From: Clostridia bacterium
Lineage (GTDB): Bacteria > Bacillota_A > Clostridia > Christensenellales > Aristaeellaceae
Assembly: GCA_017481065.1 (NCBI GenBank)
Contig: JAFUPT010000152.1
Location: 1 to 19,803 of the forward strand
Length of the DNA stretch: 19,803 nt
Direction of reading: 5' to 3'
The position numbers and the translations under genes are program-made. How positions within the stretch are numbered: position 1 is the stretch's first letter; each line of letters begins with the position of its first letter. A model generated the notes under the pieces. It was given only the letters and a program-made list of their open reading frames with translations. It did not search any database and was not told the DNA's origin. Shown here one piece after another: positions 7,565-18,723 of this stretch.

Positions 7565-7656
7565 GGGGGCTGAAAGCCCCCAGACCCCTGACCAAAGGGC
7601 AGGTCGCCCTCTGGAAACCCCAGAAAAAGGCACGCTTTGCGTGCCTTTAATTTTTT
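7565..7656 (+). terminator. Terminator region after the solute-binding protein gene
   Basis: The clear intrinsic terminator is at 7626-7656: a perfect 10 bp stem (AAAGGCACGC / GCGTGCCTTT, loop TTT) followed by AATTTTTT. Two GC-rich hairpins stand before it: GGGGGCT-GAA-AGCCCCC (7565-7581) and AGGGC-AGGTC-GCCCT (7596-7610). A nearly identical final hairpin ends the dehydrogenase gene at 9058. Confidence 0.88.
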
Positions 7657-9026: not shown

Positions 9027-9092
9027 GGGGAAATGATTTCCCCTGGCCCCGTCAGATAAAGGCACGCATTGCGTGCCTTTAAATTGATTTTT
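9027..9092 (+). terminator. Terminator of the dehydrogenase gene
   Basis: The stem AAAGGCACGC / GCGTGCCTTT (9058-9080, loop ATT) is followed by AAATTGATTTTT. The stem is identical to that of the terminator at 7626. A preceding hairpin GGGGAAA-TGA-TTTCCCC lies at 9027-9043. Confidence 0.82.
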
Positions 9093-13317: not shown

Positions 13318-14688
13318 ATGAAACGCAGGTTTTTATCGATATTTTGCATACTGCTGATGCTGGCTTCGGCTTCGGCGGAGGTCACGCCCGCGCCCACGCT
13401 GCCCAGCGGGGAGCTGGATTTGCTGGCGGTGGACCACAAGCTCTATGAACTGGGCTATCGGGACAGCGCATGCACCGGCGAGATGACGGATGTGGTGATC
13501 CGGGCGCTGAAGAACTTCCAGACTGTGAACGGCCTGGAGGTGACCGGCGAGCCGGACGAGGGCACCGTGAGCCTGCTGATGAGCGGCAGCGGCATGAGCC
13601 AGGCGGACTACCTGAACCGGATTTCCATGGAGTATGCCCAGCGGGAGCTGCTCTCCAACGGCTCCTACGGCGACGGCGTGCGGGAATTGCAGCAGGCGCT
13701 CAAGGACCTCGGCTACTTTGCCGGGGAGTGCGACGGCGCATACGGCCGGGCCACCGAGGAGGCGGTGTACCGCTTCCAGATGGCCAATGGCTTAAAGGAG
13801 ACCGGCGTGGCGGACAGATCGCTTTACCTGCGCATCTACGGCGGCGAGCCCATCTCCTGGGAGGATTTCCTTGAGGAGAGCTGCGCTTCCGCAGGGGAGA
13901 GCGGCGCGCATGTGCGGCGCATCCAGATGCTGCTGAAAAATAAAAACCACTTCAAGGGCGCGTGCACCGGCCGCTATGGCGAGGGCACCCAGCAGGCCGT
14001 GAAGCGCTTCCAGGCCGCCAACGATCTGGAGGCCAGCGGCGATGTGGATATGGAAACCTGCCGCCTGCTCTTTGCGGATATGAAGGCCATGCGCAGCGAT
14101 GCGGAGGCCATACGCCGCGGCGAGATGGGCAGCGAGGTTGCCGAGCTTCACCAGGCGCTCTCCAGCCTGGGCTATCCCTCCTCCGATGCATTCAACATGC
14201 AGACGGAGCTTGCCGTGATGCAGTTTCAGCTGGTGAATGAGATCAGCATTACCGGCATTGCGGATGCGACCACGCTGGCGCGGATTGCCCATCCCAGCGT
14301 GCGGGGCATGGATAGCTTTGATGTGGAGCAGCATGGCGTGGAGATCGGCGAGAATACGCTGGTGCAGGCTGCACGGCAGGCGGCTTCCGTGCTGGGACAG
14401 GCCGGCATGTTTGAAAGCGGCTTTAATTTCGTGAGCTATGTATACCTCAAGTGCGGCCAGCCGCTGGTGGCCCAGGAGCAGCTGCGGGTGGATATGATCA
14501 CCGACCGGGAGGCGATTGAAGCCGGGCAGATCATATTCATCGAGGCTGGCGGCGAGGAAATCTGCGGCATTGCCACGGCGGACGGCGCGGTGATTTATGC
14601 CGACCAGACTGGATATGTGGTGATGCGCTATCTGGACATGATGAATGTGGAGAGCATCTTCGGCTGCGGCACGGGGGCGGATGCATGA
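13318..14688 (+). CDS. Secreted protein with four peptidoglycan-binding repeats and a degenerate NlpC/P60-like C-terminus
   Basis: This is a 456-residue exported protein. The signal peptide is MKRRFLSIFCILLMLASASA. Four PG_binding_1 repeats follow at about 31-90, 115-173, 194-253 and 268-325, recognisable by patterns such as GDGVRELQQALKDLGY and RATEEAVYRFQMANGL. The C-terminal 340-445 follows the order of an NlpC/P60 domain: a helix with AARQAASVLGQ, then GFNFVSYVYLKCGQPL, then EAGQIIFIEAG, then ICGIATADGAVIYA. The catalytic Cys of DCSG and the His of HVGI appear to be replaced, so it would bind cell wall without cleaving it. A frame from 13219 exists, but ATG 13318 has TTGGAGGAAA in front and starts the signal peptide. 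Its stop overlaps the next gene's start as ATGA. Confidence 0.87.
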   Translation: MKRRFLSIFCILLMLASASAEVTPAPTLPSGELDLLAVDHKLYELGYRDSACTGEMTDVVIRALKNFQTVNGLEVTGEPDEGTVSLLMSGSGMSQADYLNRISMEYAQRELLSNGSYGDGVRELQQALKDLGYFAGECDGAYGRATEEAVYRFQMANGLKETGVADRSLYLRIYGGEPISWEDFLEESCASAGESGAHVRRIQMLLKNKNHFKGACTGRYGEGTQQAVKRFQAANDLEASGDVDMETCRLLFADMKAMRSDAEAIRRGEMGSEVAELHQALSSLGYPSSDAFNMQTELAVMQFQLVNEISITGIADATTLARIAHPSVRGMDSFDVEQHGVEIGENTLVQAARQAASVLGQAGMFESGFNFVSYVYLKCGQPLVAQEQLRVDMITDREAIEAGQIIFIEAGGEEICGIATADGAVIYADQTGYVVMRYLDMMNVESIFGCGTGADA

Positions 14689-15431
14689 GCGCCCTGCTCA
14701 GGCCGGGGGAGAGGCTGGATGATTTGCAGGCCGGCGGATTTTTCCTGATCCAGCGGCCGGGAACCTTCTGCCTGAATACGGATTCCGTGCTGCTGGCGGA
14801 TTTTGCCGCGCCCCGGAAGCGGGATAAGGCGGTGGATCTCGGCAGCGGAAACGGCGCGGTGGCCATACTGATGGCGGCGCACCAGCGGGAATTGCAGGTG
14901 GATTCGGTGGAAATCCAGCCGGAGATGGCGGATATGGCCGCCCGGAGCGCCGAATACAACCAAATCACAGGCCGCATGCGGGTGCATTGCATGGACATGC
15001 GGGATGCATGGAAGGAGATCGGGCGCCAGGGGAGCAGCCTGGTGGTTTGCAACCCTCCCTACGGGGCGAAGGGCAAGACCCTGCTGAACGAGAATGCCCC
15101 GGAGCGCATCGCCCGGCATGAGGATAATCTCGGCCCGGAGGATGTGGCGAGGTCGGCGGAGAGGCTGCTGAAGTACGGCGGCCGCTTCTGCGTGGTCTAC
15201 CCGGCCCAGCGCGCGCTGGAGATGATGCAGGCCATGGAGAAGTGCGGCCTCGCTCCCAAGCGCATCCGCACCGTGCACAGCCTGCCGGACAGGGCGCCGA
15301 AGCTGATGCTGATCGAGGCGATCAAGGGCGGGGGACAGGGGCTCAACTGGCTGCCGCCGCTCGTGCTCTACGATGCGCCAGGCCAGCCCAGCGCCGAGTA
15401 CCGCAGGATATATACTCTGGAATTAACTTGA
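14685..15431 (+). CDS. trmN6: TrmN6-type tRNA1(Val) adenine-37 N6-methyltransferase family protein
   Basis: This is a 248-residue SAM-dependent methyltransferase. Motif I is VDLGSGNGAVA (50-60), the acidic strand-2 end is VEIQPEMA, and motif IV NPPY (123-126) is the signature of N6-adenine methyltransferases. The early QRPGTFCLNTDSVLLADF matches the TrmN6/YfiC group, which modifies A37 of tRNA1(Val); many Firmicute relatives are annotated only by similarity. It overlaps the preceding cell-wall-binding protein gene by four bases, so the two are co-transcribed. Its last 56 codons are duplicated at 17615-17786. The copy here is continuous with the catalytic body and looks fully intact. Confidence 0.87.
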   Translation: MSALLRPGERLDDLQAGGFFLIQRPGTFCLNTDSVLLADFAAPRKRDKAVDLGSGNGAVAILMAAHQRELQVDSVEIQPEMADMAARSAEYNQITGRMRVHCMDMRDAWKEIGRQGSSLVVCNPPYGAKGKTLLNENAPERIARHEDNLGPEDVARSAERLLKYGGRFCVVYPAQRALEMMQAMEKCGLAPKRIRTVHSLPDRAPKLMLIEAIKGGGQGLNWLPPLVLYDAPGQPSAEYRRIYTLELT

Positions 15432-15530
15432 CGCATTGCCAGAATCCGCATAAAATTATGACGAAAGAACCGCTGGGGGCGCCGAAAGGCTGAGATGTGC
15501 GCAATGGCACGGTCCCTTGGAACCTGATGT
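15260..15530 (+). repeat. Direct repeat, upstream copy (trmN6 3' end + promoter + first half of TPP aptamer)
   Basis: This segment recurs at 17615-17886 with only a handful of substitutions outside one loop. It comprises the last 56 codons of trmN6, the stop, a promoter and the riboswitch as far as ACCTGATGT. The copies differ by two base changes in the coding part, both changing the residue (I to V, T to N between the copies). There are a few more in the spacer, a paired change in riboswitch stem P3, and a wholly different variable hairpin in the aptamer. Homology stops abruptly at 15530. Confidence 0.93.
15428..15456 (+). promoter_or_regulatory. Promoter upstream of the degenerate TPP riboswitch
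   Basis: TTGACG (15428-15433), 17 bp, TAAAAT (15451-15456). It overlaps the trmN6 stop codon. The corresponding box in the downstream repeat copy is a perfect TTGACA, so this copy is slightly weaker. Confidence 0.6.
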
Positions 15531-15566
15531 ATAAGGGCAAAATGCTGATTATACAAGGGTTCAGGC
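15471..15566 (+). ncRNA. Degenerate TPP riboswitch (THI element), 3' half replaced
   Basis: The 5' half is a good TPP aptamer: P1 strand CGCT, GGGGG, stem P3 GCC-GAAA-GGC, the CTGAGA box, a variable hairpin GTGC/GCAC, GGTCCC and ACCTGAT. After 15530 the conserved TAAT and GTAGGG elements that hold the pyrophosphate are missing. A helix GTATAA / TTATAC (15529-15534 / 15549-15554) sits exactly where P4 should be, with an unrelated 14-base loop. It is followed by AAGGG and then GCGG, which could pair with the 5' CCGC. TPP binding is therefore doubtful. Confidence 0.75.
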
Positions 15567-15583
15567 GGCTAAGAATATCAATT

Positions 15584-15622
15584 ACACAGTGTTCTACTAA
15601 ATGTAGAATACTGTGTTTTTTG
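15584..15622 (+). terminator. Intrinsic terminator after the degenerate riboswitch
   Basis: A 14 bp stem, ACACAGTGTTCTAC / GTAGAATACTGTGT with one G-U pair and loop TAAAT, runs directly into TTTTTT. It would end transcripts started at the upstream promoter and separate trmN6 from the inserted genes. Confidence 0.85.
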
Positions 15623-15634
15623 GAGGTGCGACAG

Positions 15635-15778
15635 ATGAAAAGAAAAATGATGCAAAGCAATACGAATATGCCCTTGCGGGAGGCCTGCAAAAACTGTATT
15701 CTAACAAAAAATAGACACGGAATCCGGCGTTATTCCTTGACACCAAAGCGGCAAAAAGCCTATAATTGCTATTGGTGA
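15635..15778 (+). CDS. Small cationic ORF of 47 residues, unknown (possible remnant)
   Basis: This ORF starts at an ATG with GGAGGTG seven bases before it, immediately after the terminator. It encodes a 47-residue basic peptide with one CKNC pair, ending YNCYW. I do not recognise it. The promoter of the following MATE gene lies inside its 3' part, which argues that it is either a gene remnant or a chance frame. Its position after aptamer and terminator is where a riboswitch-controlled gene would begin, so it may be what is left of one. Confidence 0.3.
   Translation: MKRKMMQSNTNMPLREACKNCILTKNRHGIRRYSLTPKRQKAYNCYW
15737..15766 (+). promoter_or_regulatory. Strong sigma-A promoter for the MATE-ATPase fusion gene
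   Basis: TTGACA (15737-15742), 18 bp, TATAAT (15761-15766): both boxes match consensus perfectly. Transcription would begin near 15773, giving a short leader before the ATG at 15810. The inserted gene therefore carries its own promoter and does not depend on trmN6 or on the riboswitch. Confidence 0.82.
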
Positions 15779-15809
15779 TTCGATATTATACAGATTGAAG
15801 AGGATGATT

Positions 15810-17573
15810 ATGGGAAACAGAGGAAAGAATGATTCCGAACGTCTGCTGCAGCAGCTGTATTTCCGGCTGATGCCGGTGCAGGTGATCACCCTGTTTATTA
15901 ATACCATCAACGCCTTCATTGACAGCCTGATCACCAGCCGCTATCTGGGCACCGAGGCCATGGCTGCAATCGGATTGTTTGCGCCGGTTTCGGCCCTGAT
16001 GGGCATGGCCTATGTGCTGATTTCGGGCGTACAGGTGCTCTGCTCCAACCATCTGGGCAGGGGTGATACCGGAAAGGTATCATCGCTGTTTTCCACCTGC
16101 CTGGTTGTGCTGGGAGGCGCAGGCATACTGATTGGCGCACTGTGCTTTGCCTTCAGGGCACAGCTGGCCGCCTTCCTGGGTGCTGCGGGCAATGCCGCGC
16201 CCCTGCTGGAGGATTACATCGCCGGCTGCTCCATCGGTATCGTGGCCCAGGTGCTTTCCGGCCTGCTGATGTCCATACTGCCGCTGAACAATGATTCCCG
16301 CATGTCCATGGCGGGCACCGTTGTGATGATCGTTACCAATGTATCCCTGGACCTGGTGTTTGCCATCTGCACGGATATGGGCACCCTGGGCATGGGCCTG
16401 GCCACATCCATCAGCTATCTGCTGTCCGCAGGCCTGCTGATGTCCAGCTTCCTGAAAAAGAACAAACTGGTGCGCTTCAGCTTCAGGAGCCTGAGATTTG
16501 GCGATATGCCCTCTGCGGCAAGGCTGGGCATGCCTTCGCTGCTGTTCAATGCCGGCTGCACGGTAAAATCCTTTGTGCTCAATCAGGTGCTGCTGTCCAC
16601 GGGCAGCATTGCCGCCATTGCTGCGATGTCGGTTCTGAACAACATTTGCAGCATACTGGGCGCAATTCCCTGCGGATCGGCCAAGGTTGCCATCATACTG
16701 GGCGGCATCTATTACGGCGAGGAAGACCGGCGCAACATGTGTACGCTGCTGAAGACTGCGCTTGCGATCACTGCATCGTTGTCCATCGTGGTTACCGCAG
16801 CGCTGATGCTGGGCAGCTCTGCCGTTTCCAGCCTGTTCTATGCACCCCACACCGAGGCATGGATCATCACCCGCAGAATGCTGATGATCTTCCCCAGCTT
16901 CCTGGTATTCAATTCCATTTACGGCATATTCACCAATCTGTACCAGTGCCAGGGGCAGGTGGGCTTTGTCAACGTGATGTCATTTGCGGAAAACATCCTC
17001 ATTGCCCTGCTTTCCGCACTGGGCGTGGGCGTACTCGGCTCGGATGCCGTGTGGCTGGCCTTCCCCCTGAGCGAAATTCTGTGCGTGCTGGCCATCGCCG
17101 CATCGGTGTTCATCCGGCATGGGGGCGTCACCTTCACCGCCCAGGATTGGCTGAAGCTGGCTCCGGATTTCGGCGTGGACGAACAGGACCGCATCGATAT
17201 TTCCGTCACCTCCATGGACAGCGTAATACAGATATCCGAGCAGATCGTTGCCTTCTGCAATGCCAAGGGCCTGGATAGAAAAACCTGCATGCTGTCGGGC
17301 CTGAGCGTGGAGGAGATGGCCGGCAACATCGTCCGGCACGGCTTCAAGGGACAGCACAGGCCGGTGATCGATATCCGCGTGATCTATAAAAACGGCGGCG
17401 TCACCATCCGCCTGAGGGACAACTGCCGGGCCTTCGATCCTCTGGCCTACACCCAGCAGTTCGTTTCGGATGATCCCGCCGCGAACATCGGCATACGCAT
17501 GATTTGCGGCCTGGCCCGGGATGTTGTGTATCTGAACAACATCGGCATGAATGTATTGCTGGTCAAGGTATAA
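15810..17573 (+). CDS. MATE-family transporter fused to a C-terminal RsbW/GHKL-type ATPase domain
   Basis: This is a 587-residue predicted fusion. Residues 1-435 form a polytopic membrane region of MATE type with two homologous halves, including INAFIDSLITSRYLG near the start and QGQVGFVNVMSFAENILIALLSALG in the second half. Residues 455-587 resemble the HATPase_c domain of anti-sigma factor kinases such as RsbW: N-box SVEEMAGNIVRHG (E501/E502, N506), G1-like RLRDNCRAFDP (D537) and G2-like NIGIRMI. The glycine of the usual DxG box is Cys here. MATE proteins normally are cation-driven and have no ATPase, so the tail probably regulates or signals. TTG at 15795 and ATG at 15804 are possible starts, but GAAGAGG is best spaced for ATG 15810. 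The gene lies alone between two direct repeats and has no terminator of its own. Confidence 0.85.
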   Translation: MGNRGKNDSERLLQQLYFRLMPVQVITLFINTINAFIDSLITSRYLGTEAMAAIGLFAPVSALMGMAYVLISGVQVLCSNHLGRGDTGKVSSLFSTCLVVLGGAGILIGALCFAFRAQLAAFLGAAGNAAPLLEDYIAGCSIGIVAQVLSGLLMSILPLNNDSRMSMAGTVVMIVTNVSLDLVFAICTDMGTLGMGLATSISYLLSAGLLMSSFLKKNKLVRFSFRSLRFGDMPSAARLGMPSLLFNAGCTVKSFVLNQVLLSTGSIAAIAAMSVLNNICSILGAIPCGSAKVAIILGGIYYGEEDRRNMCTLLKTALAITASLSIVVTAALMLGSSAVSSLFYAPHTEAWIITRRMLMIFPSFLVFNSIYGIFTNLYQCQGQVGFVNVMSFAENILIALLSALGVGVLGSDAVWLAFPLSEILCVLAIAASVFIRHGGVTFTAQDWLKLAPDFGVDEQDRIDISVTSMDSVIQISEQIVAFCNAKGLDRKTCMLSGLSVEEMAGNIVRHGFKGQHRPVIDIRVIYKNGGVTIRLRDNCRAFDPLAYTQQFVSDDPAANIGIRMICGLARDVVYLNNIGMNVLLVKV

Positions 17574-17614
17574 AAACGGATTCATCAAGGCAGCAACGAA
17601 ATAACGGCAGCGCG

Positions 17615-17786
17615 GCGCATCCGCACCGTGCACAGCCTGCCGGACAGGGCGCCGAAGCTGATGCTGATCGAGGCGGTCAAGGGCGGGGGACAGGGGCTCA
17701 ACTGGCTGCCGCCGCTCGTGCTCTACGATGCGCCAGGCCAGCCCAGCGCCGAGTACCGCAGGATATATAATCTGGAATTAACTTGA
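17615..17786 (+). pseudogene. trmN6: 3' fragment of trmN6 (last 56 codons)
   Basis: The reading frame from RIRTVHSLPDRAPK to RIYNLELT and the TGA stop is kept, but the catalytic domain and a start codon are absent, so it is a non-functional gene end. It differs from the intact gene by one I-to-V and one T-to-N change. It is left over from the event that placed the MATE gene here. Confidence 0.88.
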
Positions 17787-17811
17787 CACATTGCCATAAT
17801 CCGCATAAAAT
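17783..17811 (+). promoter_or_regulatory. Promoter for the riboswitch-controlled thiT
   Basis: TTGACA (17783-17788), 17 bp, TAAAAT (17806-17811). The start would be near 17818, just before the aptamer begins at 17826. The -35 box overlaps the stop codon of the trmN6 fragment. Confidence 0.8.
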
Positions 17812-17825
17812 TATGGCGAAAGAAC

Positions 17826-17910
17826 CGCTGGGGGCGTCGAAAGACTGAGATGAACGGATTCCGTTCGGTCCCTTGGAACCTGATGTGGGTAATCCCACCG
17901 TAGGGAAGCG
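17826..17910 (+). ncRNA. TPP riboswitch (THI element), complete
   Basis: All conserved parts of the thiamine pyrophosphate aptamer are present in order: P1 CGCT/AGCG (17826-17829 / 17907-17910), GGGGG, P3 GTC-GAAA-GAC, the pyrimidine-binding CTGAGA box (17845-17850), a variable hairpin GAACGG/CCGTTC, GGTCCC, ACCTGAT, P4 GTGGG-TAAT-CCCAC (17885-17898) and TAGGGAAG. It precedes thiT and a terminator hairpin, so TPP should switch off thiT expression when thiamine is plentiful. Confidence 0.95.
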
Positions 17911-17950
17911 AACGCTGGAATCTAATCCGGATAGATGAAAGCATCCGTTT

Positions 17951-17987
17951 CCCGCCTGGCTGTGAAAGCAGCCAGGCGGGTTTCATT
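17951..17987 (+). terminator. Riboswitch-associated terminator hairpin before thiT
   Basis: A perfect 12 bp stem, CCCGCCTGGCTG / CAGCCAGGCGGG with loop TGAAAG, is followed by TTTCATT. Its place between the TPP aptamer and thiT fits transcriptional attenuation. The T-run is short, so termination may be incomplete. A smaller hairpin CGGAT/ATCCG (about 17928-17948) lies between aptamer and terminator and may be part of the switching structure. Confidence 0.78.
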
Positions 17988-18015: not shown

Positions 18016-18723
18016 ATGAAGAAATTCCTTGTTCTGCTGATGACGATTGCACTTTGCTTTGCGGCCTGCATCCCGGCGCTTGCCGAGGAGGCGGCGGATT
18101 CCTCCGCACTGATGACTTCCAGCATCATCGCCGTGGCGGTATTGCTGGTGCTGATGGCCGTGGGCGTGTGGTTCTCGGCAAAGCGGGTGAAATGGAATGC
18201 GGCGATGATCGCGAAGGCTGCGCTCTGCGTGGCGCTGGCTTACATCCTGAACATGATCACGCTCTACCGCATGCCCATGGGCGGCTCCATTACCCTGGTG
18301 GCCATGCTGCCGCTGGTGCTCTTTACCGTGGCCTTCGGGCCGCTGGAGGGCTTGCTGGCGGGCTGCGTGTTCGGCCTGCTGGATTTGCTGATCAATCCCT
18401 ATGTGATCCATCCCATCCAGATGCTGGTGGATTATCCGATGGCATACGGCGCGGTGGCGCTGGCTTACGCGGGCTGGAAGCTGCCGGTAAATAAGAAGCT
18501 GAAGCTGCCGCTGGCCGTGCTCTTCGGCTACTTTGGAAGGTATGTGATGGCAGTGCTCTCCGGCGTGGTGTTCTTCGCGGAATATGCGGGCGAGCAGGGC
18601 GCGCTGGTGTATTCGCTGGTTTACAACATCAGCTATCTGGGCATCGAGGCGCTCGTGTGCTTTGCCGTGACGCTGATCCCCGGCATGCACCGCCTGCCGG
18701 AGCTGATGCGGAAGGGAAGGTAA
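18016..18723 (+). CDS. thiT: Thiamine-specific ECF transporter S component ThiT, with extra N-terminal segment
   Basis: This is a 235-residue membrane protein that binds thiamine and works with the shared ECF energizing module (EcfT/A/A', not in this window). The core from about residue 60 is ThiT-like: an AxxxA motif in the first core helix (ALCVA), YRMPMGGSITLVAMLPLVLF, GPLEGLLAGCVFGLLDLL, then PIQMLVDYPMAYGAVAL. The TPP riboswitch directly upstream supports thiamine as substrate. The protein is about 50 residues longer than typical ThiT: the N-terminus has a signal-peptide-like sequence ending PALAEEA and then an additional membrane helix (about 35-52). The ATG has GGGAG at suitable spacing. 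Confidence 0.92.
   Translation: MKKFLVLLMTIALCFAACIPALAEEAADSSALMTSSIIAVAVLLVLMAVGVWFSAKRVKWNAAMIAKAALCVALAYILNMITLYRMPMGGSITLVAMLPLVLFTVAFGPLEGLLAGCVFGLLDLLINPYVIHPIQMLVDYPMAYGAVALAYAGWKLPVNKKLKLPLAVLFGYFGRYVMAVLSGVVFFAEYAGEQGALVYSLVYNISYLGIEALVCFAVTLIPGMHRLPELMRKGR

Follow-up and report, generated by a model that had tools for sequence, protein, structure and literature searches.

What has happened to a housekeeping gene when its 3' end is found twice, once in place and once detached behind another gene? This question is raised by a contig from a Clostridia bacterium of the Aristaeellaceae (JAFUPT010000152.1, assembly GCA_017481065.1), which was analysed whole, over 19,803 nucleotides (nt), and is called the window below. 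Between its trmN6-like methyltransferase gene and the thiamine transporter gene thiT lies a gene in which a MATE transporter is fused to an HATPase_c_2 domain, and the last 56 codons of trmN6 are found on both sides of this gene. The displacement scar of the window is genuine and affects an unusual gene; its detached trmN6 end is not the only one, as several were seen among related bacteria. Incoming DNA has probably displaced the resident trmN6 end, whatever the type of recombination.

Layout of the trmN6-thiT interval

A repeat search of the window yielded a 238-nt direct repeat (15260-15497 and 17615-17852) with an ungapped identity of 97%; among repeats of at least 30 nt, the runners-up were at most 46 nt long and 65 to 81% identical. 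The first-pass annotation had described direct repeats of 271 bp. These 238 nt were recovered, as was an exact 21-nt extension (15510-15530 and 17866-17886), but the extension is off register by one base and the copies are unevenly alike: the 172 nt of the trmN6 tail contain two mismatches, versus five in the adjoining 66 nt (p = 0.019). The longest identical run is 93 nt. As had been claimed, both copies hold the last 56 codons of trmN6, and trmN6 itself is an intact frame of 248 amino acids. The layout is thus that of a gene-end displacement, with trmN6 whole and ending in one 3' end, and a homologous 3' end lying detached downstream.

Between the copies a terminator comes first, then a 47-codon frame, and after it a consensus promoter with the MATE-HATPase_c_2 gene, while the right copy is followed by a complete thiamine pyrophosphate (TPP) riboswitch, a terminator-like hairpin and thiT (Table 1). 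In agreement with the earlier reading, no transposase or integrase was matched among the module frames scanned (the MATE gene and a 93-amino acid frame). The TrmN6 of the window scores 87.4 bits against the NCBIfam TrmN model, under its cut-off of 350 bits; the NCBI name of its relatives is tRNA1(Val) (adenine(37)-N6)-methyltransferase.

Comparison of the two tails with related TrmN6 proteins

A TrmN6 search retrieved P0074, a protein of 248 amino acids present in ENA on two contigs, the longest of 72,079 bases. It differs from the TrmN6 of the window at residues 213 and 244 only, exactly where the two window tails differ from each other, and its last 56 residues equal those of the right, detached fragment at 56 of 56 positions (P0074 being known as a protein sequence alone). 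Two differences among the 56 tail residues stand against none among the 192 residues upstream (Fisher p 0.05). At residue 213 the valine of the right copy is shared by 52 of 65 relatives, four having isoleucine; at residue 244 asparagine is present in P0075-P0077 and histidine in P0078. The detached tail would thus represent the state of a seemingly undisturbed gene, the attached tail appearing as the odd one. As the detached tail is like P0074 and the attached one is odd, incoming DNA is favoured over duplication followed by drift. The attached (left) tail looks like the newcomer, and the comparison suggests that the insertion was recent.

Empty sites in related genomes

The 308 genomes used for comparison belong to the family assigned to the window by TrmN6 similarity (up to 64%). 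Three TrmN6 matches in them reach an E-value of 1e-97, at 62-63% identity; a scan of public contigs gave 16 loci, the best at 42%. In total 37 trmN6 loci were compared, 31 of them with at least 1 kb of downstream sequence. As the first-pass annotation had anticipated, empty sites exist: in six of these 31 loci, all from other species, trmN6 is followed without an insert by a thiT relative (54-60% identical) on the same strand. A TPP match lies between the two genes in all four of the six that were checked (G270, G483, G517 and G568). Since the insert-free trmN6-thiT order is widespread, it is taken to be older than the insert. Two further loci (L128 and L134) have a distant thiT relative (30-31%) behind a TPP-like motif, and two (L051 and L131) a weak thiT match on the opposite strand. 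In G452 (L050; L079 1646-1920) trmN6 is directly followed by a C-terminal piece of ThiT only, 80% identical, the riboswitch and N-terminus being gone.

In one genome, G280, the native trmN6 is followed after 21 nt by a MATE gene, matched by Pfam MatE at 169.6 bits. The family therefore includes a trmN6-MATE arrangement that could give rise to such cassettes. Exchange between strains, which had also been suggested, is conjectural for the module of the window.

Detached trmN6 ends elsewhere

Detached ends were sought with the 56-residue tail as query at an E-value of 0.01, a search that returned both copies in the window, used as positive control, and that misses shorter ends. The query matched 88 of 89 fetched trmN6 loci (several genomes being represented twice), and one of these, L042 of G155 (TrmN6 44% identical), holds two tails. 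They lie at 2065-2274 and 2308-2517, are 96% identical over 210 nt, and the detached copy has one residue changed in 58; the next gene encodes an MFS transporter on the opposite strand. The duplication in G155 starts exactly with the codon that comes after Pro-Lys, corresponding to window residue 193; that of the window starts one base earlier, with the joint at codon 192/193.

Among the 308 family genomes, 213 gave a tail match and seven gave two. Two of the seven (G417 and G532) were not counted as further cases, both copies lying at contig ends, where assembly or strain effects are possible. The other five (G617, G601, G637, G621 and G589) have one block in common, whose DNA is 97.5-99.7% identical where it overlaps; the species' own trmN6 genes are 81-87% identical to that of G617. 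The block measures about 4.04 kb in G617 and G589, whose contigs have the most of it in common, and its borders in G617 are perfect terminal inverted repeats of 15 nt. It contains a DDE transposase, an rve-type transposase fragment and a detached trmN6 end, which starts between codons 193 and 197 and shares 75-77% identity with the native genes it was compared with; 52 nt past this end, in the same direction, comes a MATE gene encoding 486 amino acids. The encoded protein is a distant relative of that of the window (26% over 285 residues). The block is a transposon that acquired a trmN6 end and a MATE gene, presumably one with kinship to IS1182; on the sequence evidence, it travels between species. 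Its neighbours in G617 are phage tail genes.

RNA leaders, promoters and terminators

The first-pass annotation had read the left copy as the first half of a TPP aptamer, and this proved wrong: it is a full-length, low-scoring TPP-like match, spanning model positions 1-105 with an E-value of 6.6e-5 in 431 bases. At the cut-off of Rfam RF00059 (54.3 bits) the right aptamer alone is detected, and thiT does have the complete riboswitch ascribed to it; the left copy appears after the threshold is relaxed. While the right copy is a member of RF00059, the left one retains the helices along with two motifs, CUGAGA and ACCUGAU, with pairing possible for all of P1 to P5 in the predicted fold, but remains under the cut-off. 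Missing from it are the consensus L5 and the GCGUAGGGAA stretch, which are replaced by a longer stem, the P4/P5 arm having been rebuilt; the lost bases are, we assume, those that hold the pyrophosphate of TPP. The rebuilt arm (15516-15562) is a near-perfect inverted repeat (GAACCTGATGTATAA versus TTATACAAGGGTTC), perhaps made via hairpin-templated copying.

In an alignment of the two aptamers, 72 of 107 columns are alike, with 14 mismatches and 21 gap columns. P3 is paired in both, though the bases differ, and in P2 the right copy has a compensatory CG to UA change relative to the left copy and to four aligned relatives. Judged from this alignment, both RNAs descend from lines that kept the fold. 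The RNA parts are more diverged than the tails, as expected of mixed ancestry. Folding z-scores were -2.95 for the left RNA and -1.00 for the right aptamer (34 of 200 shuffles equally good); as the genuine right aptamer is near chance in this test, the left value is no proof of a riboswitch. A literature search for TPP riboswitch, thiT and tandem arrangement together yielded nothing related.

A strong terminator starts three bases past the left TPP-like match. Simple scans of the region found five promoter-like sites versus 2.2 in shuffled sequence, and five terminator sites versus 2.4; in view of this modest excess, strong sites alone were used. The homologue search for the 47-codon frame came back empty, and the frame is probably a remnant or not a gene; a 31-nt match in G464 spans the GGAGG-ATG stretch only and was judged to be due to chance. 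Elsewhere in the window, a 46-base hairpin is found in two copies (7608-7653 and 9040-9085), 80% alike, with the core AAAGGCACGC..GCGTGCCTTT; these are probably similar terminators.

The MATE-ATPase gene

The annotated fusion was confirmed, both MatE and HATPase_c_2 being found in the protein, and a full sigma-70 promoter match precedes its gene. The protein passes the Pfam MatE cut-off (82.5 bits versus 24.9) and does not pass that of NCBIfam TIGR00797 (106.9 versus 147.4). Relatives of the fusion (E-value 1e-60 or better) occur in 103 of 300 family genomes, the closest at 45%, and both domains are present in 37 of 73 protein-search rows, that of the window included, with the best 7,996 candidates scored; P0002-P0004 are relatives at 65-71%. 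MATE fusions with an RsbW-like HATPase_c_2 domain (15810-17573 in the window; P0002-P0039) are common in the family. The GC content at third codon positions is 0.757, inside the range of seven neighbouring genes (0.725-0.835), so the donor would not have been very foreign.

No fitting literature on a MATE-ATPase fusion was found, and PADLOC reported no defence family. Carriage of the module by a phage gained no support, as a search of viral contigs, limited to close relatives, gave no match to the MATE protein; nor did carriage by a plasmid, a near-identity DNA search giving one match, to an unrelated P-type ATPase. A TPP leader was likewise set aside as a regular partner of the MATE family: in a search for the bare CTGAGA motif, made without an RNA search, it occurred within 1.2 kb upstream in six of 30 MATE loci, by our estimate about the chance level.

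Table 1. Coordinates of features in the trmN6-thiT interval, and of the transposon-like block in other genomes
Feature	Position	Strand	Remarks
trmN6-like methyltransferase gene	14685..15431	+	248 aa (amino acids), intact; Pfam MTS; ends in left (attached) tail
Repeat, left copy	15260..15530	+	trmN6 last 56 codons, promoter, front of TPP-like RNA
Promoter-like site, left repeat copy	15428..15456	+	10/12
Variant TPP-like fold, left copy	15465..15580	+	full-length; 33.4 bits, under 54.3 cut-off
Intrinsic terminator	15584..15621	+	14 pairs and T run; z -6.06
47-codon open frame	15635..15778	+	behind GGAGG; no detected homologue
Promoter-like site, MATE-ATPase gene	15737..15766	+	12/12 sigma-70 match
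MATE transporter with C-terminal HATPase_c_2 domain	15810..17573	+	587 aa
Linker, MATE stop to joint with detached tail	17574..17614	+	41 nt
Detached (right) trmN6 tail	17615..17786	+	last 56 codons and stop; 56/56 residues equal to P0074
Promoter-like site, thiT leader	17783..17811	+	11/12
TPP riboswitch aptamer, before thiT	17820..17923	+	complete; 72.4 bits, over 54.3 cut-off
Terminator-like hairpin, thiT leader	17951..17980	+	
thiT, thiamine transporter S component	18016..18723	+	235 aa
Transposon-like block	L165 779-4820 (G617); L166-L169 (G601, G637, G621, G589)		

Discussion

Displacement is favoured because of the empty sites, the identity of the detached tail with P0074, the RNA parts diverging more than the tails, the gene order in G280 and the five-species block. 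DNA from a related lineage would have brought a trmN6 3' end (from about codon 193), the variant TPP-like leader with its terminator, and the MATE-ATPase gene. If the donor was a circle, one crossover of the RecA type between it and the resident trmN6, no further downstream than base 15321, would produce the whole layout in a single step. The gene would be kept whole, its final codons now being those of the newcomer; the 56 codons that had ended the resident gene would be severed and moved 2.36 kb downstream with the promoter, TPP riboswitch and thiT, these three remaining one unit. Such a homologous single crossover, as proposed in the first-pass annotation, is the likeliest single mechanism, held tentatively, and the empty-site relatives that go with it exist; a site-specific rival had been overlooked, and the recurring breakpoints lower the chances of the homologous route.

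Comparable events have been described. Insertion of prophage e14 after codon 362 of icd in Escherichia coli K-12 is reported to duplicate 165 bp and to replace 54 C-terminal residues by those of the element, with two residues changed, the frame kept and the old end detached on the far side (PMC11148124; e14 and icd also in PMC6379469). Unlike the window, with its 2.4 kb, one exporter gene and no integrase found, e14 is a prophage of 15 kb and has an integrase. In the model proposed for Rhs genes, according to PMC2935791, a single crossover with a circle pushes the old 3' end downstream, as here; Rhs displacement, however, concerns toxin tips in arrays, and the window a housekeeping gene with cargo. 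Partial direct duplications of 109-950 bp, placing a homologous end beside foreign DNA, are likewise described in E. coli after DNA was trimmed, resealed and integrated by a single crossover, but with a laboratory plasmid under selection (PMC3240628).

Several points weigh against the displacement scenario or its proposed route. The argument from the tails concerns two residues only, at p 0.05; P0076 and four of the 65 relatives also have isoleucine at 213, and more distant relatives vary at residue 244. The closest TrmN6 in the 308 family genomes is about 64% identical, and none of 24 long trmN6 loci (four with less than 1 kb downstream) is a donor locus with the window's MATE fusion. In the MATE cluster P0001, the protein of the window is joined by one other member. 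A joint made by random ligation, finally, leaves the same-codon start in G155 unexplained.

The recurrence of the breakpoint in G155 and the block makes site-specific recombination a serious rival, although we consider it unlikely. Here trmN6 near codon 193 would serve as attachment site for an e14-like element that supplies the gene end, its integrase having been lost or acting in trans. The joints in the window and in G155 fall within one base of each other, the block is cut close by, and the exchange of 56 residues with two changes recalls that of 54 with two changes in icd. On the other hand, no integrase frame was found in the module; only seven of the 213 tail-bearing family genomes have two tails, five of them owing to one transposon block and two lying at contig ends; and three breakpoints are few for a pattern that was spotted post hoc with a query that misses shorter ends.

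A tandem duplication of the trmN6 tail, riboswitch and thiT in the bacterium's own lineage, with a MATE gene later replacing the first thiT, had been offered as an ancient event, and is improbable. It would account for a left copy that is a complete leader with terminator, and G155 does have a plain tail duplication, 243 nt apart and without cargo. At least two events would nevertheless be required, and no thiT remnant was seen. Moreover, all 56 residues are preserved in the right tail, which was freed, and it is the left tail, under selection, that has changed; the compensatory P2 change sits in the working right riboswitch, and the P0074 comparison supports an incoming segment instead.

An assembly chimera of co-existing strains is, in our estimate, quite improbable. 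The window being a whole contig, the existence of a second TrmN6 variant (P0074) and the 93-nt exact stretch shared by the copies would allow for one; however, the joint at 17614/17615 has no shared flanking sequence, so that reads must cover it, and similar arrangements are present on unrelated contigs. Slightly less probable still is a linear donor, joined by homology-facilitated illegitimate recombination, homologous at the trmN6 side and end-joined at the other. Its footprint would be identical, and PMC5361080 proposes it for effector arrays of Vibrio cholerae, but it is rare and usually removes resident DNA; in the E. coli test reported in PMC3240628, polymerase chain reaction showed 56 of 60 clones to be duplications ascribed to a single crossover. 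Insertion of the module as a transposon, for which the comparable trmN6-end-plus-MATE unit riding one in five species could be cited, was rejected as the least probable of all, the module having no transposase and no inverted repeats of at least 14 nt at its ends, and the terminal repeat of the block giving one chance-level match in the window and no more.

Replacement of a gene end with preservation of function has precedents in prophages and toxin loci. In the window the same scar encloses a single exporter gene, with no integrase found, and other species have related trmN6-end cassettes, one of which is on a transposon. A bolder idea, which we regard as doubtful, is that small exporter cassettes without an integrase dock preferentially in trmN6 around codon 193, each bringing a replacement trmN6 end and an exporter gene, keeping the host gene whole, and moving by recombination at trmN6 or by hitch-hiking on transposons; the left TPP-like RNA may then be the leader of such a cassette with a changed choice of ligand. 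As the scar reveals the newcomer copy, such events are searchable at scale. If the codon-193 breakpoint holds, it would point to a way, so far unknown, for small cargo to enter chromosomes harmlessly.

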